Shown: piece after piece, positions 21,486 through 56,771 of the stretch
Layout: every line of letters begins with the position of its first letter
Position numbering within the stretch: position 1 is the first letter of the stretch
Origin: Apostichopus japonicus
Lineage: Eukaryota; Echinodermata; Holothuroidea; Aspidochirotida; Stichopodidae
Reading direction: 5' to 3'
NCBI RefSeq assembly: GCF_037975245.1
Contig: NC_092574.1
Coordinates: 5,570,713 to 5,634,712, forward strand
DNA length: 64,000 bases
Notes under the pieces: generated by a model
The model's database searches: none
Seen by the model: only the letters and a program-made list of their open reading frames with translations
What the model was told of the DNA's origin: nothing
Program-made: the position numbers and the translations under genes

Positions 21486-28883
<7,398 letters not shown>

Positions 28884-31921: not shown

Positions 31922-34900
31922 ATGAGTCGGTTCAAGGTATCAAAGTTCAGGAATGCTCAGGAAAAGGTTCCTCATATGGAGGTAAGAGCAAACTTAATTT
32001 TCATTCTGACCTTGCATAGGTCTAGCTCATAATTTAGAAGTTATTGGAAAATGAAGGCAGTGCAATCTGTATTATCACAACTATGTATTTCATTAAGTAA
32101 AACTTTGTTTGATATTTCAAATATACGGTTTACCTTTCTAGTTCTTTTTCTAAGAGAGACGGAATATGGCTTTTGTTTAACTTTAATTTATGGACTTAAC
32201 CAACTATAATGTTTATATGCTAAAAATCAGAGGATCCCAATAGACGACACGATATTTGCTATTCAACACAAGTGTACTTGGCTATTTGATTGTACCATTA
32301 CTTCAACTGAAAATGATTTTTTTTATTATGATTTAAATTAATGTTGCTTAAATATAGTTTTGATTTCCAAGTCAGGGCCTGGTTGAGAATTTGTGAAGTT
32401 GTGGAATATTAATGGGATTGTAGGAAACTTTTTTAGTCTTGCTCTGGTTTCTGTTTGTGCTGAGTACATATTAAAACATTTTGATAAAAATAGAGTTTCA
32501 AACTATTCACAATGTTCAGTACTGATATGTCTTTAGATTGTTCTGTGGCAATTGATTTACACTGAAGTTGTGAAATTTATGTTACAAGATATATACAAAA
32601 TGAAAGTAGAAGTACAGACAACACACAGTTCTATAAGCAGCTATACTGATGAGTATGAGAAAAAGAGAGGAGTACATCCGATCATGTTCCTTGTTTCAGT
32701 TTGGAATAGGTTTGTGTAATTAAAACATGGCTCCATTGGTACAGACAGACATACATATCCTGTTGGAAGTTAAATTACTGTTCTTTCATTGCAAACCTAA
32801 AACATATCTTTTATATGCTGAAATTGTTCTCAATATTATTAATAAGGAATTAAATGTGCAAAGTCTTGGGTAAACAGAAACAGATGAATTTAAAATTATG
32901 TTTCAAATCTACATTCTGTGAAGCTCTTTCACCTTTTTTTTTTGTTTGTTTTTTGTACAGTCATGGATAACAGGACTCAGAGTGGGTTCTCTGCCCTTCA
33001 GCCATGGCAACCATATCAAGGCAAGCGCCGCTCTTATGGCCTTTAACGTCGAATCTGGAAGTAAGTTTGGTTTTTTCCGTATTACCAGCAGTTTTACACA
33101 GAGTTTTCAAAGTATTAAAGTCTCAATGCTTGTTTGCCAAATTTTAATTTTGACCTTTCCAGCTTACTGCTCTAAAAGCTTACTGAAAATGACACCATTC
33201 TCTGCAATTTTCATATTAATAAACATTATTTTTATTGAAGTATCTGTTAATAAACATTTTGAGCTGGATAAAATTCGCCAGATTTTTTAAAGAGTTCGTA
33301 GATTCTACAAAATTCAATCCAAATTTGCAAGCCCCGCCCAACAGGTCATTGGCCAATAAAATCACTCTGTTTAATTTACGATCATTCGCCTGTGTGCTAG
33401 CCTGTGTTAGGTCCATATTTGAATAGTATCTTTCTTTCAGCTTGCAAAATTGTGTCATTTCCTTCCATTGCAAGGAATAAACAGGTGTTTTCAGACGTTT
33501 TCTCCGTGAAATTGGGTATAAAAAGTGGACGATACGAGCTATATGTAGGTTACATTTGTGTACTGAACATACTGATATGGGCAGTCGCAGTGATTTTACG
33601 GTAAATCAATCGCGCCATAAGGGCAACAAAATAAAAAATTTTCTTTCAATGGCGACAGCTTTACTCCATTAAACCCACCTGGTTAGAGTGTATTTAGAAT
33701 AAGAAACATTTAATCTGCTTCGGAAGTTTCATCAGCAAACACACATTGAGACTTTAAGTTACATTAAAATAATATGTTTTTATTGGGACATTCAATGTAC
33801 CACACGGCTAGTTAAAATTTGCTGGTTTTTTTTTCTCATTAGAATATGAACTCTACTTTCGGCCAAATGCTCCCAGTCTCAATGAAAGTTGGATGATAAA
33901 ATTAATGATGCTTATCATTTTAAAGTATTAAAAAAAATCTGTTGAAAACAGATAAATGGTTTAAAGTATATGCAGCAATTAATCACTCCATTGTTAAATA
34001 CCTTTCTATGCCTTCTTTCTTTTCCTCCTTCCTTTGGAGCTTTTGTTGAAGAAACTGCAACTGTTAAGGTCTGAATAATGAACACAAATTTCAGCTTGAA
34101 CGAATTTGGGATGTAAAAAATGAGAAAATGTTATAAACTGATACTTGTTTTGCAGATGGAGGCAACCTAGCCGTCTTTCCTGTCGATGCCAAAGGTCGCA
34201 AGGATATGTCCATTCCCCAGCTACAAGCTCATTCAGAATTTGTGACAGATTTTGATTTCAACCCATTTGATGATTTTCAGTTAGCTACTTGCTCACAAGA
34301 TGGATTGGTAAGCCGGTTACATTGATTGAAAACCTGAAACCATTACTGTCTTTTGTAATTTCTCTTCACTCTGTGAGGATAAAAAACCTGTTAACAAGAA
34401 AGTAGTTGCATTGAATGTGTTTTAAAAAAAAATATAAATAATAAGAAATAAAAAAATGTTGATTATTATTTTTAACATTTTTATCTCTAAGCTTAGTAGC
34501 TGTCTCATGTTTGTGACAGAGACGAGAGTGTATGAAACGTTTCATCTGCTCGACAGATTCGTATCTGGGATATTCCAGAAGAAGGATTAAGTACGAGCTT
34601 ATCAACAGCCTCTCTGAGCCTGCCGCAACAAGATGGCCCAGTCGAGGTCATTTCCTACAATCCATCGGCTTCCAGTGTCCTTGCTGCATCCATCAAGAGC
34701 ACCCTGAAAATATTTGACATATCATCAGGAGCAGAGAAGCTTTGTAGGTTGCTTTTTCATATGCATATGCATATACATATATGCATATTCAGTTTCTTGT
34801 TTTGTCTTCTTTTGAATCACAGTTACAGTAGTTTTTTTTTGCCAATGTTTTTTAGAAAGTATTTGCCATAAACAGGTAATATGTACATACTGAAACACAT

Positions 34901-37900
34901 TACAAATATTATTTTGTAATGTTTCATAAACTTGTGAATAGTAAATGTCAGCACAACTGTCTTATTTGGTATTGTGCCCTCTTTAGCTGAATTTCTCTTT
35001 ATTTTTCATCCCATTATTTTGTCTTTATATTAATCCCAGTTCTTTTTGATGGATCAGAAAATTTGGTTTATTCTTGTTCACTAAAACCCTTCCCTGGCTA
35101 ATTTTTATCTCAATACATTACATGTATAGAGATATTGTAACAGTAAGTGGGACTCTCTCCTCTCTTAAAAATTTTTCAGCGTCTTCATATAAAGTTCTTT
35201 TTCTCTGGAATTTTCAGAGCAAGCATATATCATATAGGCCAACAAAAGTTACTATTTTTTATTCGAGAATTTTATCTCATTCTATGACTTTTTCACCGAT
35301 TTATGTCCAAATCGGGCCAATTTGGTCTGAAATCCAGTTTAAACAACCCATTTTTGCACACGCTCCAAAACTTATGTTTTATGAAAGAGAATAGAATAGA
35401 ATTGTCTGTCAACAGTGGTATCGTCTAAGATAGGGTCCTATGTATTATATATTTTATTAACATTTTAAACTTTCATTTGTTGTTTACAGGTAGGTATTAA
35501 TAAGAATTTTACCAGCTGTATATGACATTTTATGGCTTTTATTTGCTTTATTTTGATGTTTAAATGATTTTTCTTTCTTAAAACAACACTGAGCTGCCGC
35601 CCCTACTTTTAGTAAAAAGGTCCGTTTTTGATGATTAAGCCCCGCCCCCAAGTCTGTTTTGTAGCAGATTGGCTATGACTCATGGCAGCTACATGTTAGA
35701 TATACGAAAATGGCTACCCTCGCGACCAATTTTTGTATTGTAGTTAGGTACGCCAGGTGTAGTGTATTGCATGCTAATTACATATAAGTGCATTTTATAT
35801 CAGGCCTTCGTTTTTGTAACCTCCATTTAAGGATAGTACTGGTGTTCAGGTAGCTTTTCAGAGCAAGGGCCATGATAAGTTTGTTTGATTGCCCTTCATG
35901 TATTTTGTATAATTACGTATACACATTCTTGTATTTCTGAAGGCTACTTACTGTAGGCCTAGTGCATTTAAAAAAATATATATATAGGCCTAGCCTAGGC
36001 CCCCTAGGTCTATTAGGCTTTCAGTGATAGCCACATTAGCATTGTACTGGTGTTCAGACAGCTCTTCCTAGGAAGGACCAGGGTAAGTTTGTTGATGGGT
36101 ACGTATAAAAGAGGAGCCGGCCATAGCATCACAACTTTTATAAGACTATAAAAATTGTATAAGGTTATGTTTTATTTATAAGGATATAAGATGTATAAGG
36201 TTATAAGAAGTATGTTTAGCTTTCTTTTGAACCTGTAATATTTGACATCAAATGTACAAAGAATTAAAATAAAATAACAAAATGGAGAGGAACTGAGGTG
36301 GCTAAAAGGGGAGGAAGAGGCCACCCATCACTTGCATATAAAAACTTGTAATCTTCTTTTACATTATTTTTCCAAGTCATAAATCCATGAAATCTTCATG
36401 TCAGAAAAATTGAGATGAAAAACGTGGGTTGTTTTGATATCTAGAAGTGGACACAGTTTTGATGGTAGTCACCACTGCAGTCTACAGTAACATACAGTAG
36501 GTCAATAGGCCTAGCTCTCAAGGCAGGCATCAAGAATCTGGTCGAGCTGTTCGCCTCTTCTAATTTGGCCGTTGTCATTGACGTCAAACTATATGACCAA
36601 AAAGTCCAACAGAGACTGACCCAAGATGAAGGATACCACATAAGAAACAAGTTCTTAAATATTCTATGACATTACTAAACCTTGCAACGTCGTCCTTTCG
36701 ACTAACAGGCAATGAGCGCTAAAGGCAAGACTAGCAGGATAAAGTGTAACCTGCAGAGACTATTCGTGGCAAAGTAGCAAAAATGCAAGTTATATATTTG
36801 TTGTACCATGATTGATAATTGTAGAGACAGAGCAAAGATTTGAAATTAGGAATCAAAATTAAAACTTCCAGTATTGAGATACTGCATCATTGATGCTCTT
36901 GTTTATTCTATTTTCCTTTGGTTCATTTTTAGCTATTGATGGACATAATGACACCATTCAGAGCCTGTCATGGAAACAAGATGGCCGTCTTCTGGCAACT
37001 TCAGGAAAAGACAAAACAATTCGCATTGTTGATCCAAGGCAGAGCAGCATTTCTAGTGTAAGAATTTGTAATTCCTTCACTTTTTGTTAGCATTTATTTT
37101 TACAAACAAAGACGTTTTGTGATACAATTTTTCAAGTATTTTACAAAATTTAAAGTCTAGTTTAACCAAGCATATTTCATTGTAACCACTTTAATATTGC
37201 CTTAATGCTCAAGCTTTATGTTTTGGGGGGTGGGAGGGGGAAGGGGGAGGGGGTTTCTTGTACGGCAGCTCACTACAAGCAGTTTGTGCCCAAGTTCTTT
37301 CCAAATAATCTTTGGAAACATGAAAATTTCTGCTACAGTAGTCAATTTGTATCATCTTGCTCTGACTTGCATTTCAAAAAAGACAAAACTATTGACAGTA
37401 AATGTTAAAGTGGCCATGACACGAAAATTTCAAAGTCCTATATTTTTGGGATCCATCAAAGAATGTTCTCTAGAACATGTATCAACCATTCTGCCAGTTT
37501 AAAACTTGATTTTTCAAGTCGAAAATTGAGAATGAATTTACCCTTTTCGGCGTTTGAAACTTTGTTTACTCGAAAATTTTCCGATTCGCATGACGTCATG
37601 TGACGTCACGTTTTGAACACATTTACGATCCTCCGAATATACCATTCACGTACACAGTAGACAAGTACACATACCACTAGTAGTTACTAAACAAAACACC
37701 GATCACAAGTGCGATATCAAATCAAAATTTCCTGTGAAATGACGGATCCAGAACCAATTGCGGCAACCGAAGTTCAAAGTGATAATGGTTCTTCACTAGG
37801 CAGTGAAATTGGGCTATAATTAGAGTGCCCTTTCTCATATTCGAAGCAGAGAGTGAAGGCGATGATCATTCCAATATTGAACCGAACGTTGAGGGTGGAG

Positions 37901-40900
37901 CGGAGGTGTTAGAACCGTATCAGTTCGAGCCTGTTAAACGAGCCGAAATTGAAGCTCCACAACATATCGAAGAAGAAATCCGTTCGAAACCATTGCAAGG
38001 AACATACAACGTGGTAAGAATTTATTAACGAAGCATTTAAAAACAAAATCCAGTCCATTTTGTGCATGTGTTGTTGGAATTCGCGGAACACCCTAAACCG
38101 TATTGTGCGTTGTGTTACGGTAACTTACAACTCATATGTAGAGTGTGTAGTACTAGTAGGGTTGTTGCATACTGAAAGTTTGGCTCGGGGATGTAAGTTG
38201 CATTATGCAGCCATGCTAGGTAGGCATATGTGTTATTTCATACTCATTATTACTTGGCTAGTACTTTGGCCTGGAGTTTTGCAAATCAATTTTCTGAAAC
38301 AAAAGAATGTTTCATGATACACGGAAGGTGTAAAATCACAACAAATGTAACCATAACTGTACATTGTATGCCTGCTTGTTATTGTGGACATCATGGCCAA
38401 CATTAATACATTTTTAACTTTCATAAATTTTTTCCCAGGCAGTACAGATACATAGCCTACGGTCAACAGGTTCAATGATACTTGGGATTCCTAGCAAGAC
38501 ACGTCAGGGTTGTGCTACCATCATGTGCAGTCCAAAGGATCAGAAGTGATTTTCCAGCCAATGGTCATTACACTGGATTCAAGTTGCCAGGAGAAAACTC
38601 ATTGTATAGGAAGCCTTGGTTGAGAAATTCCTTTTCTAAACTACAATTGTGTTGGATTATCAACCGTCAGGGTTCCCTCAGTGTTGATATATTGAAATTC
38701 AAGACTTTTAATTCAGGATGAAAAGGTTATTTTCCAGACCCAACATCAACAATGAAAGAAAAGGCATGTTTTGAAGCATTTGGACACAAGTATTGGCGTG
38801 ACCGTGATGTCATATAATATGTGCATAAGGGAACGGGCATTGACCTTTTTAGGGGCATTTACCTCCCAGACGTTTGATTCGTACCTTTAATCTGGAAGCC
38901 AAAATATCCATATCACCAATGATATTTGACAGAAAAGTCATAATAAAGACCAATGGAGGCAGCAGAACTCTTGAATGTTTAGACTTTGTTTCTTCAGCAG
39001 CAGTTGGTTTGTTTTGTAGTCTTTCTTCAAAAACTCAGCAGTACACCCTGTTAATGGTCTTCGATTGTTTTAATGCGTGTGATGCTGTGTTTCACATTGC
39101 CCATCATCAGTGTTGTACGTGTCGTCGTGCTTGTGTAACATTTTTGCATGTGAGTTACTTCGTGCAGTGTTTCTTGGTTTAAATAACCCTTTATTGTATT
39201 TGATTCTGGATTATTCTAATTAATTTGTCACAACAACGATTGATAGCGATGGACATGCAACTGCTTTGTAGGCTTAAAGCAAAAAAATTCATGTAAGTTG
39301 TTTTCTTTTAACCTCCTTTGATGTCACAAATCACATTAGTGTTATTTAAGAATGATAATGTTTATGGAAAGTACAGTTTTACTTTTATGTCATATAATAC
39401 AATGATTGTTGTTAATGTTAGTTCAGATTGTCCAGAATGACTGTCTAGAACTGATATTGAATAAATTTTGTTCAATGATTTAACACTTGAACTATGTTGT
39501 GTGAAATTTTGGCTCTGTGACTTTAAAATAAATCGCTTTGAGATTTAATTAAACACCCTTTGGAATAAAATCTTTTTACCTACCTATTTTGACCCATCCC
39601 CATTACCCCCACTCCCTCCACAACATAAAAAATGGTTTTCCTGGAATAGGAATAAGAAATTATTGCTATAACTAACTGATCCAGCATATTCCAGAAATAA
39701 ATTGGGGCACTGAGATTTGTTCACAAGAAGATGTAACCCATTGCTTCTGAAGCTAACCTCATAGCTTATTAGTATACAATAGAGCAATGAAGGGGGTGTT
39801 AATTTAGATGATACAGTAAAATCTCTTCGTCTATTGCGACTTCAGTGTAGTAACGCTAATACTATAGTACTACTAGTGCTCGGCGCGCTACCTCCTAAGG
39901 ATCGCCACTTGCCCCATTGGAGGTTTCCTGTTCCCCGATCTGGTCTTCAGAGTAGTTTTTTGTGGATTACTTGACAGAAGAATGACTCTTTTATGTCGAA
40001 CCGTTAAAGTCCATTTGTTTTATTTCATAACAAAAAGGAGGGATCGTAGTATGCTTCCGTGAAGTGTTCGCTTCATTCGGAGCTGCATACTGGCTAGGCC
40101 CAGTGAAATCGGCGCTGGTGTTGTGCACTAACTTGGTCATAATCGCCGTGTTTTTTTCGTCCTTCAACCATGGATGAAGGCTAATTGCATGGGTAATGAT
40201 ATTTATGCAACCCCCAACAACACAACGGACCGGCATTTCTCTCGGATAGTTTACAACAGTTGAAAAACAAACTTGAAATTTCTAACGATATAGCGTAATA
40301 CAGTGGTTGTTCTCTCAGTGTAAATGTGCGTGTATATGGAACGGTATGATCGTCGCGTATCCGATACATGCCTGGGCTTTGCACGTGTGTTCCTAACATG
40401 ACGTCATCATTGTCTTGTTGTGAAATCGCATTCTCAGATATCTATTTTCGGATGCGAATATTAAAACGTTAATTACTAATTAGTCCTTGAGGTTTTCAAG
40501 GTGTTGAGGATAGTTTTGAACATAGATTTTCTCATAGATTCAGAGGAAGTTACTCTCGATGAGTTGGATTTTTCGTGTCATGGCCTCTTTAATATCAGCA
40601 GAACAAGCAATTATGTCTTTAATAGTTCAGTGAAATAAATGAAAATTTGTTCTATTAATTTTACCTACAAAAAAGTAGTACAATCTTTCTTTTTTTGAGG
40701 GGGTAAGGGGGTTGTGTTTGGGGGTGTTATAACTTCATTTGAGTTGCCAGATCTTGGTGGTCCATGACGTGAAGCAAAGAAATGCCTATAAGATACAAAT
40801 ACTCAGTGATAGATCACTTTGACGATTTGATAACTTCGTAAATGTAAAATTCTAGCAAAGATATAGGACGAATATTAGGTTAGTAGTAAATCAAAATAAG

Positions 40901-43900
40901 GAATGTTAGATTGTGTTGAAAGGTTTATCATTGGTAGCCTACCATGCAATTTAGGGGAGAACACATTATAGTCCATATGCTACAGACCATATGCTACAGT
41001 CCGTATGCTACAGTCATATGCTACAGTCCATATGCTTACAGTCCATGCTACTGTCCATATGCTACAGTCCATGATTTCTGTTTACAATTTCAGGAAACGA
41101 AAGGTCATGAAAATGAGAAAGATTCCAGAGTGTGTTGGTTTGGAGACCAGGACTATGTGCTATCAACAGGAGCTACCAAGGTAATGTATTTTATACTTGG
41201 ACTTATCTTCTGTGGGATTTCAATGGTTGGTCTTAGATCCGTATACACCATTATACTTGGTTTTTACCATTCCCTTTGATGTTTTCATCAATCTGTTAAG
41301 AATCTTTTAGAATTATGCTTTTTAAGAACTCATTTATCTACAGAGCAGCCATTTATATTCAAAATGGGTTCATTATAATCTCTGTTAGAATCCTTTTAAT
41401 CTTTCAAACTTCTAATCCCCCATCTTATTTCTTATTTGTTCATGTTTTCATGATTGTACATTTTTACGTCTTTTATGTATCATTATTATGTGTCCTATTT
41501 ATTAATTTTGTAATTTATACTGGAATACAGAAATTGAAATTGAAATCTGTTGCATTCATGTCAGCAGGGGAATTCTCGTTAAAAGACCTGTTCTGTTTTT
41601 TTTTATACAGATTTCAGCATTTCATAACATTTTCAAAGGGCAATGTACCTAACATTGTTGCACAACTGAAGCATTTTCTCGCTTATTTGCCCAAATACTG
41701 GACAATTTTAAAGACTAATCAAATCTGTTCTGTGCTTTCATTTTTGCAGTCACGACAGAGACAAGCATTTTTATTTGACGTGAGGAACTTTAAGCAGAAA
41801 GTAACTTCACTGAGTTTTGACCCCTCTTCAGGGTAAGTCTGTGTTTTTATTCTTACCAATGACTTCATTGATTTATTTTGATTGACTGATTGATTGATTG
41901 ATTGATTTACATTATTAAGCAGCAAGAAATGATCATTTCTACAAAACTTCCTGAAGTTGTCTGAATATCAATCATCAATCAATCATCAATCAGTCAATCA
42001 ATCAGTCAGTCAATCAATCAGTCATCATCAATCAGTCATCAGTCAATCATCAGTCAATCAATCAATCATCAGTCAATCAATCAATCAGTCAAATGATCAA
42101 TCAGTCATCAATCATCATCACAATCATCATCATCATCATCATCAATCAATCATCAATCAAACATCAATCAATCAGTCAAATGAACTAATGTTAGATCATT
42201 ATATATATAATAATATAATAATTATCAGCGGTAATTTTTACGATGATTAAGTGACCGCAAATGTGGGAGAAACCCGCAAGGGCTTATGAAATACGACTTA
42301 TACCTCGGGTGTCTTCCAATTCAAGACTTTAACTCAAATTTGGAAAACTTTTCAATTTAGAAAGCCATTTCAAATGGGTAAACCATAGATAGCTGTTGGA
42401 TGAAAAAACCCATCTTACTATATGACCGCCTTGATCCACTCTGGCCACAACACCGGTATTATGAAGGAGTGTTAGCTCAGTGGTTAACGCCGATGCCTTT
42501 CAATCATAAGGTGCCCCGGTTCGAGTCACTCCCAGATTAATGTATATGTCGTCCAGTTACAGAGTTGTTGACAATTGACAATTCATAATCATGGACGTTA
42601 AATATGAACGTAAGAGACTGATTTCGGTCAGCTTGCGGCTTTGATAAGCCAATGAGGCTTCTTCGCGAGTTCCTGCTTGCAGGAGGATCTAAAATACATA
42701 CATGAAACCTTCATGAATATGCAAATTTCAGATACTAGTATACATTTGTATTGGTGTACGACAACTTGATTTTGCTTCTCTTCTCTCTTCAGAATTATGA
42801 TTCCTCTCTACGATCCTGATACAAAGATGCTCTTCATAGCTGGCAAGGTACGTTCCTGATTCAACGACTTCATTTCGAAACCATCTCGTGACTTGGTTGT
42901 TTAATTTCAGCTGACAATCACATATCTCAGTGTATTGGTAGAAAAAGATTGAATTTCTGTTTCCTTAAATTGTATATCTCTCACTCACTATTCGAGACAG
43001 TCGTCATTTCATGACTTGGAATTTTACAAACAAAAGCAGAAATTTGGACATTTCATTCGGAATGATTTTAGTCAACATATTCTCAACTAGTAAAGAATGT
43101 ATTCTTTAGTATATCTGTAGATTTGTCTTTTAATTTATTCTTACATTTGCAATATTTGAACTAGCTAGCTTCTGTATAGTGACATTGGTGAGAGTTAACT
43201 CATTAACAGTGGGTCACAGTTGGCAGGAGGAATTGTTCTGAGTAATTTTCAATAACGGTTTAGTTACAAAACACTGAGTTGCATTCAATACGCCATTCTG
43301 GCTTAATAGGTAACATAGCTGTATCCCAATCTGTCATTTTTTTTCCTATTTAATTAATTTCTCCATTAATGTCGAGATTCTACAAGAGAGTTAACGAAGT
43401 AAAAGTGTCTGTCTTTGTTTCATCATTAACATCATCAAGATGATAAAATCTACATTTCACCCTTCAGACCTCATATTATAGTTTTATCTCTTTTATCTGA
43501 TTTTACAGGGAGAGACAACCATAAGATTTTATGATGTCATTGATTCCAGTCCCTTCCTCAAGGAATGTGAGTGATATCTTGTTGTGTGTGAGACTAGTGA
43601 CATATTACAGATGACTAATTCAACGTATAGATATGGTTGTATTGTATACTGTGACTGCTGGGAATACTACGAATCACATTCTTGCTTTCACAACCGTTTC
43701 ATTTTTCTTTGACATTAGTAAGATTATCTCTTTAAATCATTTTTGCAGTTCTGTCGATAATTGGCTACTTCATATGCCAGGGTTTATCTCATGTTGTATG
43801 GTTTTAAATGTATACATTTAACTCAACTTCATCACAATGGTTTAACAGTTGCTTCCATTATATGTTTCCCAATGATGTCTTGTTGTTCTTGTTTCTTCCT

Positions 43901-46900
43901 ATTGTCTTTATAGAAACTCTAATTTTCAGAAATAATTTGTCATAATGCTAACAGTTCTGTTAAAGAATCTGTTGTCAAACCGTCTAAATTTCTTACATTA
44001 CCCTCACAGACTTTTTAGAGTAGATAGCAGTTGGTTAAAAACAAATTCTATCTCTGTCAAAATATGGTTAATTGGTGTTCCAACTTTCAATTTTTTTTTT
44101 CCCCCTTTCAGGCTCTACCTATGTGGGCAAGGCGCAACAAAAGGGTGCTGCATTGGTCAACAAGAGGGCGCTAAATGTCATGTCATGCGAGGTGAATCGC
44201 CTGTTACAACTGACCCAAGATGGGGTCATACCGGTCTCCTATGAAGTTCCAAGAAAAGTATGTAAACAATAAAATCTGATAAGTGTGTGTGTGTATGTTT
44301 GTTTCGTATTCTGACCGAGGAATTGAACAAAAGAATTCCAGGTCCACGGTTGTGATTTCTAAAGAATCACCACGTCATCGGAAGAATTCTATTGTATGGG
44401 GTATTGTTAAGGTTAGGGTACGTGGATTTGAACAATGGAAAATACAATGGGGTCCTCGGTTGGAATGTAATAAAAACATGTATGGGTGTGTGTGTGAAGT
44501 GGTTTCTACAAATTTCTCCATCTCATAGAGAAAACTTAACAGTCATGTTTCCGTATGCTTCAAGTTATGATTTCACATTATGGTGTAGGTTTATATTCAG
44601 TGTGTATTCAGTATGTTTAGTGTAGCTCTATTACAGTTTCATGTACCTTTGCAGCATAAGAGATTATTGTATAATGTACACTTTTAGATCAAATGGATAC
44701 ATTTCATTCTCTTAATTCCATTAGGTAGCATAAGCCATTCAACTGGGAGTTGTATCAGTGATTTTCCTTTTAACACTTGGCATATATCGTATAAAATTTC
44801 TTCAATCTTCATAATTGCATAATTTTCTAATATGAGACATATTAAATGGTGGAAGTAATGTCAACTTTTATGTTTTATAGTCCCACAGAGATTTCCAACC
44901 GGAACTATTCCCTGATTTTAGAGGAGATGAACCAGGGTTGACCTCAGAGGAGTGGTTTGAGGGCAACAATGCAGAGGTCAGTAAAAATATGAATATTCAT
45001 TAAGTCCACCTTTTAGTAGATTTTATGAAGTAATGGTAGCTTCCTCCGTTTAAACTACAAGCGTAAAGACAGTTGGTCTTTTAGCTTGATAATTTTATAA
45101 TCACACGACCGTTGTCAAGGTAATTTGTTGAAATGGATATGTTTATCTTAATAAATTTATAATCACACGACCGTTTTCAAAGTAATTTGTTGAAATGGAT
45201 TTGAATCGGTGATTATTCAGGGGTCAGTGTTTGTTGACTGGAATTGTTGGTGAATGTTGTCTGAGTTTTGGTCATCATTGACTGTTGTTAGATAATTGTC
45301 TTAAACCACATAAACTAAACTCTGAATGAATAAACTATGATTGAAATTTCAGGTTGCAAGGGTGAGTTTAAATCCATCAAAGGCCAAGCCTGTTGGAAAG
45401 AAACAGAAAGGTTCCTCCTCTTCTGAGAACAAAGCTGAAAAGACAAAGACAGAAGAGGTCAAAGTACAAAAGGTAATTTTCCATCTTTATTAATTTCTGT
45501 TAAACAAAGTTGGTAATATGGAGTGTAAGAATATTTTGGTTGTCTAGAATCTTTCATAATGTTATTTGCATTCCTTTAATATAGATGTTTTTCTAGTGGC
45601 CAGTTCCTCCTGTGGCTACTAAGGCCAATATATCTCTTGCATTCCCAACCATTTGGGTATTAGGTTGTAACCAATGAAGCTGTAATATGGTTAAACAATA
45701 TGCAAGATTTGATTTCTTCTAATTAGCACCCTCATTTAAGGCAATTTATAGAGAAATAGCCATATTAAACTTGGACATAAATATATCAGTAAATCTCAGA
45801 GCACTGTACTTGTTGATCCTGAGGTTATATAAGTAGTTTTAGTTTACTTAATATTCTACATATTTATATATTGATCTTGAAGTGTGTCATTACAATGCTC
45901 CTCCACAGGATTGAATATGTCCTTCAGATGACCTCATTAATAACAAGAGCACTGAACATAACTATGTACTTCTGCTATTGTATGTATGTATTTATGTATG
46001 TATTTTAGATCCTCCTGCAAGCAGGAACTCACGAAGAAGCCATCATTGGCTTATCAAAGCCGCGAGCTGATCGAAGTCAGTCTCTTAGATTCATATTTAA
46101 CGTCCATGATTATGAATTGTCAATTGTCAACAACTCTGTAACTGGACGACATACATTAATCTTGGAGTAACTCGAACTCGGGACCTTATGATTGAAAGGC
46201 ACCGGCGTTAACCACAGAGCTAACACTCCTGAAGGATTTCTTGGAAGTCTAAGGATAATCAATTTCCTTAGGAACTGTCAAAGCCATTCTTGGGTTTCTG
46301 AGGGAGACCTATTAGTTCACTGAGTACTCAGTCATAACAAATTGTTGACATTAATTAATTATTTTTCTTATGTCTGATAGCCTGATAAACCAGCAAAGAC
46401 TACTTTGCCACAAAAGCCTTCACCACCTTCCAAAAGCACAAGTTCCAAGGCTGATGGTGTAGCCTCTAAAGTCAGTAATGGTGATGTCGTCAAACCTGCG
46501 GTTGCCGTGGAGAGCAAGTCAAAACCGAAGGGGCCCATCTTGAAGCGATTCACGTCAAAGTTCCGTCACATCAGCACCGTCATGATGCATCGGTCGTTGC
46601 AGTTCACCAGCCTCAAGAAGACCAGTATCAGCACCATGAGTGAATGTGACGGTTTCCATGTCAACAAGAAATGGGCGGCAGTCCCTCTGTCTGGAGCGGG
46701 TGGTAACATTGCCATCATTGATGTAAGTGGGCTACTTGGAATGTTTTTATTTATATCATCAAGACATACATGATAGTGGATGTGATAATATTGCAATGGC
46801 ATGAGTGAAGGACGCAGGTGGTAATTAGTACTTTTTATTTCTACTAAGAAATATTGAACTGCCTTTGTATGGATTAACTCATGTATAAAATATTCTATGC

Positions 46901-49900
46901 TTATGAGCTTTATCCTTGAGCCTGTCCTCAATGTAATACTAATAAGTTATCTCCTTGTGCCTGTCCTCAGTGCTATATTAAGAAGCTATCTTCTTTTGCC
47001 TGTCCTCAATGCTATACTAAGAAGCTATCTCCTTGCGCCTGTCCTCAATGCTACACTAAGAAGCTATCTCCTTGAGCCTGTCCTCAATGCTGTACTAAGA
47101 AGCTATCTTTTTGTGCCTGTCCTCAATGCTATATTAAGAAGCTATCTTCTTGTGCCTGTCCTCAATGCTATACTAAGAAGCTATCTTTTTGTGCCTTTCC
47201 TCAATGCTACACTAAGAAGCTATCTCCTTGTGCCTGTCCTCAATGCTATATTAAGAAGCTATCTCCCTGTGCCTGTCCTCAATGCTATACTAATAAGTTA
47301 TCTTCTTGTGCCTGTCCTTAATGCTACACTAAGAAGCTATCTTCTTGTGCCTGTCCTCATTGCTTCACTAAGAAGCTATCTTCTTGTGCCTGTCCTCAAT
47401 GCTATACTAAAAAGCTATCTTCTTATGCCTGTCCTCAATGCTATACTAAGAAGCTATCTCCCTGTGCCTGTCCTCAATACTATACTAAGAAGCTATCTCC
47501 CTTTGCCCATTTTCTGTCCTTCTACCGTTTGTGGTTAATTCCTTTTTGTTTTTCTTCCCTTATACTCATTTTTCCCTCTTGATTGTGACCTTTGGCTTTG
47601 CAGCTAGATAAACCATGCAAGCTGCCTGAATCTGTGCCTTTCATTGAGCATGGATCTGATGCGAGTGACTTTGCTTGGGACCCATTTGATGATAATCGTC
47701 TGGCTGTGTGCTGCCTCAATTGTAAGATAACCGTCTGGAAGATAAGTGGTCAAACTAGTGAAGGCTTTTCCGCTGATATTGAGGTGGTATTAATGGGTAA
47801 GTTCATCCTTGTTGTCTGTATATTAATATGTGATATATATATATATATTTTGTTGCTACCACTTTATTAGGGTAACTTTATTAATGGATGAATAAATCTC
47901 CAATTTTCATTCATTAACGGGTCTTTTGCCTGATTTTTTCTGTCAACAAAAGTAATAAATTATATTTTTTTCATTTTGATCTTTCAGGTCACAACGACAG
48001 AATATACTTGATTAAGTTTCATCCTCTTGCCAAAGATGTTTTACTGTCAGCATCGCAAGACCTGACAGTGAAGATCTGGAACATTTCAACGGGAGAGGAT
48101 AAAATTACCCTGGAGGGGCACACAGATCAGGTAGGTAAAACAATTATACATTAAACACTGAGTGAACAAATGGATAATAACCAAGCCATCTCACCTGTCT
48201 GGGTTAAAACTTTGTAGTCTAGTATCAATGTGCATTGGTATGGTAATTACTATGGTTTAATCTTAGAAAAAGATGAGTAAATCACCTAGCCCTATCCTAA
48301 CATACAAATGTATATACAAACCACAATATTTACTTTTACCACTGAAGTGGTTTACAAACTTGTAAAAGGTGCTAAATAGGATCTGACTTTTCTTTTCTTT
48401 TTTTTAAGATTTTCAGTGCAGCATGGAGTCCAGATGGTAAATTTGTCGCCACCTTATGTAAGGATGGCAAGATTAGGCTGTACGAGCCAAGATCATCTAA
48501 CTCTCCTGTTCAGGTAAGCATATCATATCTTCAAGAAGTAACACAAAAATTGAAACTTCCTTAGTTGGATTACTCAGAACGGATAAAAATATAAAATTCT
48601 GTTTTTTTTCCCCGTAAATATGATAATGGTGTATTTTTGTATTTTTATCTTTCATCTGCAAATCTCACTGACTATTTTAGTGTCTCTTTTGTAGGAACAT
48701 AATTTTGTTTCTGGCAATAAAGGAGCTCGCATTCTATTTGTCTTAAATGGAACTCATCTCATAGTATCTGGACAGAAAAAGTGAGTATTGTCATATTTGT
48801 ATTGATATATGATGAATTTATTATGTGATCCTTAATTACCTAAAATTTTGCAATTATTGAAAGCCTTTAACCGCTTAAAACCAATTCTTTGACATATTTT
48901 TACTCTATGGAATTTCCGTTTAGGTCATATTTTTGCGAGGATCTTGTGTTCACAATGTTGTCAAAGTTTCGGACTCTAGTGACCGTAACCATTCTATGAA
49001 CTAGGCAGCATCACACAATGTCTCTGTTGTTTGGTTCACTTTATACAGTCGCTTCTCGGCTTTTTGGCTGAGATCATGTGTAGTATCTGTTCGCTTTCAA
49101 GGGGAATGGTGATACACACCTGACGATGATCACACAGTCACAGTCCCGATGCAAGGGGACTGGGGCTGAGAGCGGATCAGTCGTTTGGTAGTTTGGTTTT
49201 CTTGCCCAGGTTCTTTCCTGGGCGACTTTTTCTTAAAAAGTATCTTTAAATCTGCTGTCCGAAATACTACAGTACCTATCTAACTATAATACTAATTACA
49301 AATGCTTCCATTTTTTTATTCTTCTATATGCTATATATCTCATATAATGAAACTGCATTAGGAATTCCACAATGTGTTTCTCTCATTCTCAACAATACTT
49401 TAATGCAGTAATCTTAAACAGTGTTTATAGCCTAACTGCAAACACAGTATACAGTAGCTATATACATAGCATACCTTCTTATTTTTGCATGTATGCAGAC
49501 AGTTAGGTTACTTGTATACTTTATAGTACCTAACTTATAGTAACCTATATAGTAACCTAACCTAACCTAACCTATATAGTAACCTTTATAGTAACCTAAC
49601 CTAACTATATTTTGCTCTAATAGAAATATTTCCAATTTGATAACTCCCTTATTCTTTACATATCTTCGTTTTAGATTATTTACAAGAGTTGTACTTAACA
49701 CATTTATGGTAGGGTTTTGACATTTCAGATTTTATTCCAAACATTTATTAGTTACCAGACACCATCAACTATATCTTTCCTCTCTAAACTCTCTTTCAGT
49801 CAGAGCACTAGGTTGGTTACTCTCCTTAAAGCATCCGATCTCAGCAGACCTGTTCACTCTGTCGATCTGAAGACTTCGCCGTCTTTCCTTATTCCACATT

Positions 49901-53810: not shown

Positions 53811-54180
53811 ACCTTAAAGGCATTGAAGACTCGCCCCAAACCGTGTGCCACCCTCTGTGAAAAAGTTAACTTTCCGTTGCTAGCAAATGACGTTTTCTTC
53901 TTGTCGCTACAAAATGCAGACAGTAATGAAACGTGATACCTTGTTATCCTTTATCTAGACCTGAGATGTCCATCGCTGCTATTTACACTGTGTTGTGGGT
54001 ATTGACCTTAGCTGTATGTATTGACTGTGCACTAGTGTCTAATTACCGACGGTAGCAAGCTGTGTGTGTATTTTCTGGGATTGATGGTGGTGTCTAACAC
54101 TTCTGTTACACCTCATTTGAAACTAGGTCAGATTGCGGGCATGCAACGTTTCTTTGTGCGCGATTCTTCACACCCTTTAA
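53811..54180. mobile_element. TTAA-type MITE, copy 1
   Basis: TTAA (53814-53817) and TTAA (54177-54180) flank about 359 bp, starting AGGCATTGAAGACTCGC and ending in a diverged inverse (GCGATTCTTCACACCCT). The interior is closely similar, in the same orientation, to 56409-56767. It begins about 300 bp after the CORO7 stop codon and before the first AATAAA seen (54523), so it is probably in the CORO7 3' UTR. Non-coding. A Kolobok- or piggyBac-type parent is inferred from TTAA. Confidence 0.85.
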
Positions 54181-54529: not shown

Positions 54530-56404
54530 AAATTAAGAATGAAATTAATATTTGATTGCTTTGCTATAGGTACATTTCAGCGTCAACAAAGATGATGAAT
54601 TTAAATTGAAAATATATTCAAATGACGTTTGACCAGCAGAAATTTCATAACATGGTAGTTGAGTGCACTAGTCATGTCTCAAACACTCAGGATTTAAAAC
54701 AGATCGTTCATAGGTATCCAGAGTTAACATAACTTTAAATTTTTCAGAAATGTAAATCTGTACGACAGGTCACTCGTAAGGAAGAGAAATATCGCATGCA
54801 TGTAGAAGACACTACGTAATTTTGTGTAAATTATTCTATATTCTGTTTGAAAGATGCATGTTATAATGAAACATGAGCCAGACATTCCTGACTTAAGGCA
54901 AATTTCATAATTCCAAATGCATATATATGAAAAGTTAAATCATTTAGGAGTAACACTTGCCTATCACTTGAATTGTTATGAAACTGACTAATTTTGTCTT
55001 ATTCATGAAATGCAATAAATTCACTTAAGTTCTTGATCATATGATCTTAGATTTGAAGTGAATCACGTACCAAAATACAAGACCTGTTTCTGCTACTCTT
55101 CTCTGACATTCACTCTATATGTACATTAATACCTAGTAACGTCATTCTGAATCATGAATATCTTTGAATATTCATAGTTGTTTTTATGAATAATCAGACA
55201 AAATATAAATCAACTGTTAAAAAGATTTCATCTTAAATACCTTTTTTTTATAACATTCCAGTCCACAAAGTAGCATTCTTATGATTTGTGATGTGAATTA
55301 TTTTGTTGATAAAGTCTCTTTGCAGGAATGCTTTCTTCCTTCAAGTTTGTGTTTTCCGTCAAGCTTTGAGAGTAACTTTACTTCCATAAGAGTTGTTTCA
55401 TCCATTCTCGTCATTAAGTCTTTCTTGTCATTAATGAAAACTTTTGTTTTTATGAAATGTCAATCAAGTTGTAGTAGAATGAAGACTCAAAAGATGGAAG
55501 TTTAGTTTCTAGAAATATCTTTTAAATATCAACAAAAATGTGTCTCTTTTTGCATTCATTGGGAGTAACCTTTGAGCTAAATGAAACTACTTTGCCAAAC
55601 CTTATCATCCAGAAGTTCAGCAAAGTCTTCCAATTATAAATTCCATCAATGTTACATTTGTAACAATTTGTAATTAATACATTCCGTTTGGGTAATTAAT
55701 ATGTAGTGTATTAAATCTGTTGCAGTTTCCTTTTGTTCTTTTCCTCCCTCCTTTGCTCCCCCCACCCCCATCCATTTTTGGGGGGTTATCTGAAGCTTTC
55801 CAAATTAGTAAAAAGCTGAAAAGTAAGTATTCCAGTAAAGAAATTCAATATATATTTAGTACATTTGAAAAAAAGTTGAAAGAATTTGTTTTCCGAGGGT
55901 CGGTCCATTAAATATTTCTATAAATCATAACTGATATTTAGTTTCCTGGTGAGCAATATCTTTTTGATATTATTATGAAAAGCACTTTTATAATCAGTAT
56001 TTCAACTTCAGTAGCAATACACAAAATTTATAGATGAAATATTTTAGAAAGAAAAGCATTGTCTGACATCTTCAGTAGTAAAATACATCGGTTTTGTATT
56101 TTCTAACTTGTTTTTATTGTATTTGGCATGTTTATGAAAAGGGTCTCCAATCTTTCAAAGCGAGAGAGAATAATATATAAGTATTTGTATTTTTACCACT
56201 TTAAAAGTTATTAAATTGATGGGAATAAACCAGACTCAGGGAAATATCATCTCGTACTTGTTTATTGTCATCAACTTGTGTAATACTTTTTTGGAAGAAA
56301 ATGAATAAAAGATAAGATATATATGAAACAAAATATTCTTTACCGTTTTATTGTGTAGACTATTCTGTCTGTGTGTACTAGCAGATTCAACAGGTTGAAC
56401 TGTC
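54530..56404. other. Intergenic AT-rich spacer, nothing recognised
   Basis: This is the spacer between the convergent CORO7 and UFM1 genes. It contains AT-rich unique-looking sequence with short chance frames and a small pyrimidine-rich run near 55735-55770. No known gene or repeat was recognised. Confidence 0.6.
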
Positions 56405-56771
56405 TTAAAGGCATTGAAGACTCGCCCCAAACAGCGTGCTGTGCTCTGAAAAAGTTAACTTTCCGTTGCTTGCAAGTTCAGGTTTTTTTTTGTGTCGCTA
56501 CAAAATGCAGACAGTAATGAAACGTGATACCTTGTTATCTTTTATCTGGACCTGAGATGTCCATCGCTGCTATATACACTGTGTTGTGGGTATTGACCGT
56601 AGCTGTATGTACTGACTGATCACTAGTGTCTTATTACTGACGGTAGCAAGCTGTGTGTGTATTTTCTGGGATCGATGGTGGTGTCTAACACTTCTATTAC
56701 ACCTCATTCGAAACTAAGTCAGATTACCGGCATAAGACATTTATTTGTGCGCGAGTCTTCAATGCCTTCAA
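56405..56771. mobile_element. TTAA-type MITE, copy 2
   Basis: AGGCATTGAAGACTCGCC at 56409 is matched in inverse by GCGAGTCTTCAATGCCT ending at 56767, giving nearly perfect inverted termini of 17 bp. It is flanked by TTAA (56405-56408) and TCAA (56768-56771), a decayed TTAA. The interior shares long runs with 53818-54176 (for example ACAAAATGCAGACAGTAATG and TAGCAAGCTGTGTGTGTATT). The 63-codon frame across its right end is by chance. Confidence 0.88.

Follow-up and report, generated by a model that had tools for sequence, protein, structure and literature searches.

A probable Kolobok-type transposon family of Apostichopus japonicus, apparently non-autonomous, with remnants of a P2X7-tail-like gene and a THAP gene

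A 64,000-nucleotide stretch of the Apostichopus japonicus genome (assembly GCF_037975245.1, contig NC_092574.1, positions 5,570,713 to 5,634,712 of the forward strand), in the following called the window, was analyzed for a TTAA-bounded element at positions 37405..40592 (3188 bp including both TTAA; no strand assigned). This element is very probably a copy of a young Kolobok (Kol0-like) DNA transposon family, which looks non-autonomous. It contains leftovers of two converging genes, a P2X7-C-like piece, hereafter KolX, and a THAP zinc-finger piece. Comparisons across the host genome support the view that its P2X7-C-like genes belong to Kolobok-type transposons, as their second gene. An earlier note, made from the sequence of the window, had called the element a relic, a word that understates a young family with many copies.

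The boundaries are defined by two TTAA target-site duplications at 37405..37408 and 40589..40592, exactly where the earlier note had placed them; at the empty sites of two sister copies, a single TTAA is present. Directly inside lie the terminal inverted repeats, an AGTGG-type end at 37409..37433 (+) and an AGAGG-type end at 40564..40588 (−). The inverted arms 37402-37433 and 40564-40595 comprise 32 nt with 88% match, and the core of the ends, AGTGGCCATGACACGAAAA versus AGAGGCCATGACACGAAAA, is identical at 18 of 19 positions, in line with the about 19 bp proposed before. With one mismatch allowed in 19, just two TTAA pairs not more than 8 kb apart were obtained in the window, the pair of the element and one at 42484-46211. 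The latter was rejected as a rival boundary, being part of a different, separate inverted repeat with 240-bp arms. Within 37405-40592, there was no sign of a second pair of long inverted ends nested in the first; the earlier note's concern that the two gene pieces might have independent flanking elements inside the TTAA boundaries is therefore not borne out.

Other copies of the family were detected by their ends and by similarity over the whole element. The 23-base end pattern TTAAAGNGGCCATGACACGAAAA gave 352 exact matches in the 671.6-Mb genome, while the pattern read backwards as a control gave 0; as each element has two ends, this corresponds to at least about 176 elements. Among the 100 end matches listed, 66 formed 33 facing pairs, each with one AGAGG and one AGTGG end, and 34 were unpaired. 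The spans of these pairs were 3114-3221 bp in 28 cases and 1447, 3721, 3855, 4715 and 4818 bp in the others. In a DNA search, in which 40 of 522 candidates were scored, 37 matches including the window spanned the query from end to end, or in one case from base 3 onwards, with 96-100% identity. The 30 best copies by similarity, again including the window and chosen without regard to their ends, were 96.7-100% identical, and 29 of them had TTAA at both ends, the left TTAA having been lost in copy L046. A further 20 copies were picked because both ends were listed, so that their own ends are no proof; the combined set comprised 47 distinct copies. All 47, being of full length, carry the KolX exon on the plus strand and the THAP piece on the minus strand in convergent orientation, as the earlier note had anticipated. 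After omission of four copies with extra DNA, the remaining 43 showed a median distance of 0.8% to the majority sequence and of 1.5% between pairs, with copy L018 as an outlier at 3.2%. The four longer copies (L013, L017, L021, and L027) were considered as progenitors and rejected; their extra DNA is located at four different places and is therefore read as later insertion. The family is young and recently active, with well over a hundred copies.

Comparison of 200-base flanks (E ≤ 1e-6) revealed similarity between copies only for L039 and L044. When the flanks of the 47 copies were joined, an uninterrupted place with a single TTAA was found among the sequences compared for two of them, L044 (C20) and L021 (C4). 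Both paralogous empty sites fall within the window by luck, at 27838..28238 (+; 96.8% over the joined flanks of L044) and at 36208..36479 (+; 90.5% over those of L021). For the joined flanks of L044, a further relative with 79% identity was present in L030. These data bear on the explanation that an unrelated host THAP relic and an unrelated host P2X7-like relic are enclosed by fortuitous TTAA sites. The broken state of each gene piece in the window copy would fit such an explanation, but the copy structure refutes it: the end matches stand against an empty control, full-length copies carry both pieces, the flanks are mostly unrelated between copies, and empty sites exist. We consider it practically without any chance of being true.

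The KolX piece of the window copy consists of a last exon at 38437..38589 (+), with an AG acceptor-like site at 38437-38438 and an in-frame TGA, and of a probable first coding exon at 37739..38013 (+), which is proposed on the basis of open frames and of a border resembling a splice site (GT at 38014), has a broken frame and gave no database match. In the open frame, the Pfam profile PF20478 (P2RX7_C) matched with positions 165-192 of 192 (E = 6.4e-5) and a score of 23.4 bits, just below the curated cut-off of 23.5 bits. A genome search reading through the one TGA extended the match to profile positions 143-192 and raised the score to 30.2 bits, above the cut-off. The zinc-cysteine part of the domain (before position 143) was found in the window copy neither by profile search nor by tblastn, and the seven zinc-binding cysteines of the ballast, a feature of the Kol0 lineage, are missing from this match. 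The TGA is common to 41 of the 43 compared copies, so it was spread by copying and not gained copy by copy. In L018 the last KolX exon is open, and a genome search with this exon (476 candidates) matched at least 150 places with 77-100% identity, which accounts for the copy number of P2X7-C-like sequences that the earlier note had sought to explain.

The THAP zinc-finger relic is located at 39815..40236 (−; main match 39886-40236), is frameshifted and would represent the start of the transposase gene. Pfam gave no match for this broken frame, so an intact sister frame was needed for detection. It was provided by L060, a 2.07-kb relative with the ends of the window family, whose THAP frame matched PF05485 with E = 1.4e-13 over profile positions 1-86 of 87 and matched window positions 39886-40236 (−) with E = 4e-18 in the genome search and 2.6e-20 in tblastn. 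As a candidate for a full element L060 was rejected, having only 2.07 kb and no KolX exon. Both gene pieces were thus found in the converging orientation proposed before, and in the window copy they are leftovers.

For the association of KolX with a transposase elsewhere in the genome, 150 of 471 candidates were scored with PF20478; all 150 matched, and 33 matches reached 60 bits. Adjoining one KolX match is L061, a transposase frame that matched PF20700 (Mutator-like transposase) with E = 1.7e-8 and contains the motifs GDGRCDSPG, VTDAHTQI, DVWH, and ILESF, which on visual inspection correspond to D, D, DxxH, and E. An NCBIfam search of two proteins gave no match. When L061 was used as query and 98 of 261 candidates were scored, 109 pieces were detected, which are distributed over 73 places. 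A DDE transposase was present within 8 kb of 35 of the 150 listed P2RX7_C matches, and all 35 pairs were convergent; shuffled places gave a mean of 0.48 and a maximum of 4 in 1000 shuffles, with orientation ignored. Within 15 kb, the number was 38 (37 convergent, 1 tandem), and the remaining P2RX7_C matches were mostly short ones like those of the window family. Several of these KolX/transposase places are near-identical copies, so that not all are independent. For the 33 strongest matches, a transposase was found within 8 kb in 27 cases, all convergent, and not in 6. Among these 6, L002 has a converging frame that resembles a frame of L004 (blastp, 38% over 65 amino acids), which is taken as a putative transposase C-terminus, and L003 has by eye a similar converging frame.

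THAP matches within 8 kb of a transposase were on the same strand in 19 of 19 pairs, taken from two overlapping lists, and among the matches listed the THAP was upstream of the transposase at 15 of 16 places. A search with the sister THAP gave 39 P2RX7_C/THAP pairs not more than 12 kb apart, of which 38 were convergent; these pairs are mostly copies of the window family and hence not independent. Proximity of PF20478 to PF05485 matches, taken by itself, gave a weak signal, the 4 pairs counted within 12 kb comparing with 1.0 expected and up to 5 in 2000 shuffles. At C17:20707092-20715426, KolX (+), DDE (−) and THAP (−) occur in the expected order, which makes this place a candidate relative of the autonomous partner. 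The orientation of the transposase neighbours and of the KolX/THAP pairs bears out the second-gene alternative of the earlier note.

For classification, the TTAA 4-bp target duplication was found in 29 of the 30 best copies and at the two empty sites, and the element ends are 5′-AG..CT-3′, i.e. of the type 5′-RR/YY-3′, in 50 of 50 fetched copies, L046 being read past its lost TT. The window family contains a THAP domain according to its similarity to the sister frame, the C/DxxH motif of the Kolobok DDE transposase was not found in the window copy but occurs as DVWH in L061, from a different family, beside a KolX gene, and PF20478 in the window provides the KolX with similarity to the P2X7 ballast that characterizes Kol0. 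The assignment to the Kolobok type by the earlier note is thereby supported. TTAA is also the target of piggyBac, and an element of that type would be an alternative, which we consider improbable: piggyBac ends are other than RR/YY, and PMC9587614, in its available text, gives the RR/YY ends as a difference from piggyBac. In addition, there is a THAP piece at the right end, and profile position 143, at which the KolX match of the window begins, is also the first one matched by the KolX at C17:20707092, which has a Kolobok-type DDE next to it. A Pfam scan of eight window frames, seven without a match and the eighth with P2RX7_C, says little about a piggyBac transposase, the core being missing.

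Several observations weigh against filing the window element as Kol0-like and non-autonomous. A tblastn search of the window copy with L061 (E ≤ 1) did not detect a transposase core, L061 being a query from a different family with which a decayed remnant could escape detection; the Kol0 assignment therefore relies on the ends, the THAP piece, and KolX. Among the matches listed, the expected three-gene order occurs only at C17:20707092-20715426, with stops in the DDE match. The three are also present together at C12:21120509-21132388, but there the THAP lies downstream of the DDE, and at the other KolX/transposase neighbours no THAP match was found among the best 150 candidates scored. One of the 39 KolX/THAP pairs is divergent. 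L060 has no KolX exon, so an element can have ends of this kind and lack one of the two genes; the earlier note had named copies of the termini lacking both genes as an objection, which does not apply to the 47 full-length copies and applies in part to L060. Finally, among the elements read there was no full element with the ends of the window family, so that both the non-autonomous state and mobilization in trans are inferred. That the family looks non-autonomous follows from the zinc-cysteine part and the DDE core not being found and from the shared TGA.

The insertion at TTAA with target duplication and the shared deletion-like form at well over a hundred places can be accommodated by the following scenario. 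A longer ancestor would have carried KolX and a THAP-DDE transposase gene in converging orientation. By an internal deletion, the DDE core would then have been lost together with the zinc-cysteine part of KolX, while both ends were kept, and the shortened form would have been multiplied by transposase supplied in trans from a full element. By the known biology of such elements, the THAP-DDE transposase of the full element would bind the ends and move the copies.

In full elements, KolX is a working second gene and most likely a partner of the transposase. The full KolX of L004 from the same genome matched rat P2X7 (6u9v) at chain residues 463-592 with E = 2.2e-23, and the cysteines C66, C68, C71, C82, C83, C90, and C156 (L004 numbering) do not vary in any of the 8 full KolX frames that were aligned, four of them (L004-L007) being 90-99% identical. 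An AlphaFold model of eight KolX sequences had a mean pLDDT (predicted local distance difference test) of 47.8, too low to search for related folds, and the fold assignment accordingly relies on sequence comparison. Within one family, silent and changing differences over 112 codons of KolX were 12:0 (L004/L005), 13:3 (L005/L006), and 5:3 (L004/L006), which are signs of purifying selection on KolX in that family. L005 (G000:C15:4116277-4119678) has an open KolX, and the adjoining transposase match (C15:4119888-4120928) has 6 stops; it is possibly a KolX-only or domesticated copy. On the L005 branch, 12 silent and 2 changing differences in KolX versus 4 silent and 5 changing in the transposase C-terminal piece hint that selection on KolX may have persisted beside a dead transposase, these counts being small and the branch including time before the death of the transposase.

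The opposite possibility is that KolX is passive cargo without a role in the life of the transposon. KolX is not known to have a biochemical role, the window family apparently spread after its KolX had been broken, as the shared TGA indicates, L060 lacks the exon, and in another family the pair L002/L003 showed 6 silent and 16 changing differences (ratio 0.70). The mostly silent differences in the full elements of the L004/L005/L006 family argue against passive cargo, which is rather unlikely in our view; of the two roles that the earlier note had offered, second gene has held up and cargo is the weaker half. From the zinc binding and the retention of the gene, it may be guessed that KolX acts together with the transposase or with the DNA joining carried out by the host. 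A more far-reaching idea, to which we give a small chance, is that KolX is a required and selected Kol0 partner that can act in trans, can outlive its transposase and repeatedly seeds host genes such as P2X7 and Nanor, and that the 'ancestral synteny' of the zinc-coordinating ballast (ZCD) genes likewise reflects the transposon's own genes.

Regarding the surroundings of the element, a WD40 exon of a host gene is located to its left at 36878..37087 (+), and a DUF1899 exon, probably of the same gene, to its right at 46381..46770 (+). DUF1899 is presumably a coronin domain, and we take the host gene to be coronin-7-like; since the two exons flank the element on the same strand, it probably lies in an intron of this gene. 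A minisatellite at 46906-47507 (39-bp unit, 15.4 copies) follows just after the DUF1899 exon within an open frame of 226 amino acids. Besides, further repeats were observed in the window. The inverted arms 42465-42706 and 45991-46230 (240 bp, 93% alike, about 3.3 kb apart) look like another transposon, and a TTAA-bounded stretch of 643 bp at 33115-33757, whose inverted ends AGTCTCAATG.. differ at 2 of 19 positions, resembles a miniature transposon. A dispersed repeat of 358 bp at 53813-54170 and 56404-56761 (90% alike) has TTAA followed by AGGCATTGAAGACTCGCCC at its start.

The available text of Kojima and Bao (2022; PMC9587614) describes the KolX of the Kol0 lineage as resembling the P2X7 ballast, P2X7 as having arisen when a P2X4-like gene was fused to KolX, and Nanor as a likely domesticated KolX. 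The earlier note's suggestion of a transposon origin of the P2X7 tail is therefore right, and had already been published in 2022; the present result is a correct independent rediscovery of that claim. It adds another family, statistics on how often the two genes converge, and indications that KolX is under purifying selection. In its main text, PMC9587614 uses neither 'convergent' nor 'opposite'. In the literature searched, no paper beyond it was found for KolX; Kolobok together with P2X7 gave in addition a review which, as far as its available text goes, mentions each once, and transposon, P2X7, and Nanor together gave a bone-disease review. The data thus provide independent whole-genome support for a published, briefly argued claim, namely that the intracellular tail of P2X7 comes from a transposon gene. 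They also give concrete form to the question of what KolX does in transposition, as open KolX/transposase pairs, an open KolX with a broken transposase, and a much-copied family broken in both are found together in a single genome.

Three known systems can be compared, each according to the available text. With the Kol0 lineage of the Kolobok-1_XT type (PMC9587614), the elements described here share the TTAA target, RR/YY ends, and a DDE transposase with KolX; in contrast, neither a DDE core nor the zinc cysteines could be detected in the window copy. A THAP domain is usual in Kolobok (PMC6004289), and the THAP-bearing Kolobok transposases of Xenopus share THAP, DDE, and TTAA, while KolX and P2X do not occur in the main text of that paper. 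The ZCD genes (Rump et al. 2020, PMC7016195) contain the same domain, from sponges to echinoderms and vertebrates. According to the description there, two markers form an 'ancestral synteny' with these genes, which have not expanded to a large extent, and neither 'transpos' nor 'Kolobok' occurs in the main text. Unlike these genes, the domain is present here at no fewer than 150 places, 35 of them beside a transposase. Many of the multicopy P2X7-like tails in invertebrate genomes may therefore be transposon genes and not receptors, and the constant transposase neighbour suggests that the two ZCD synteny markers may themselves be transposon genes.

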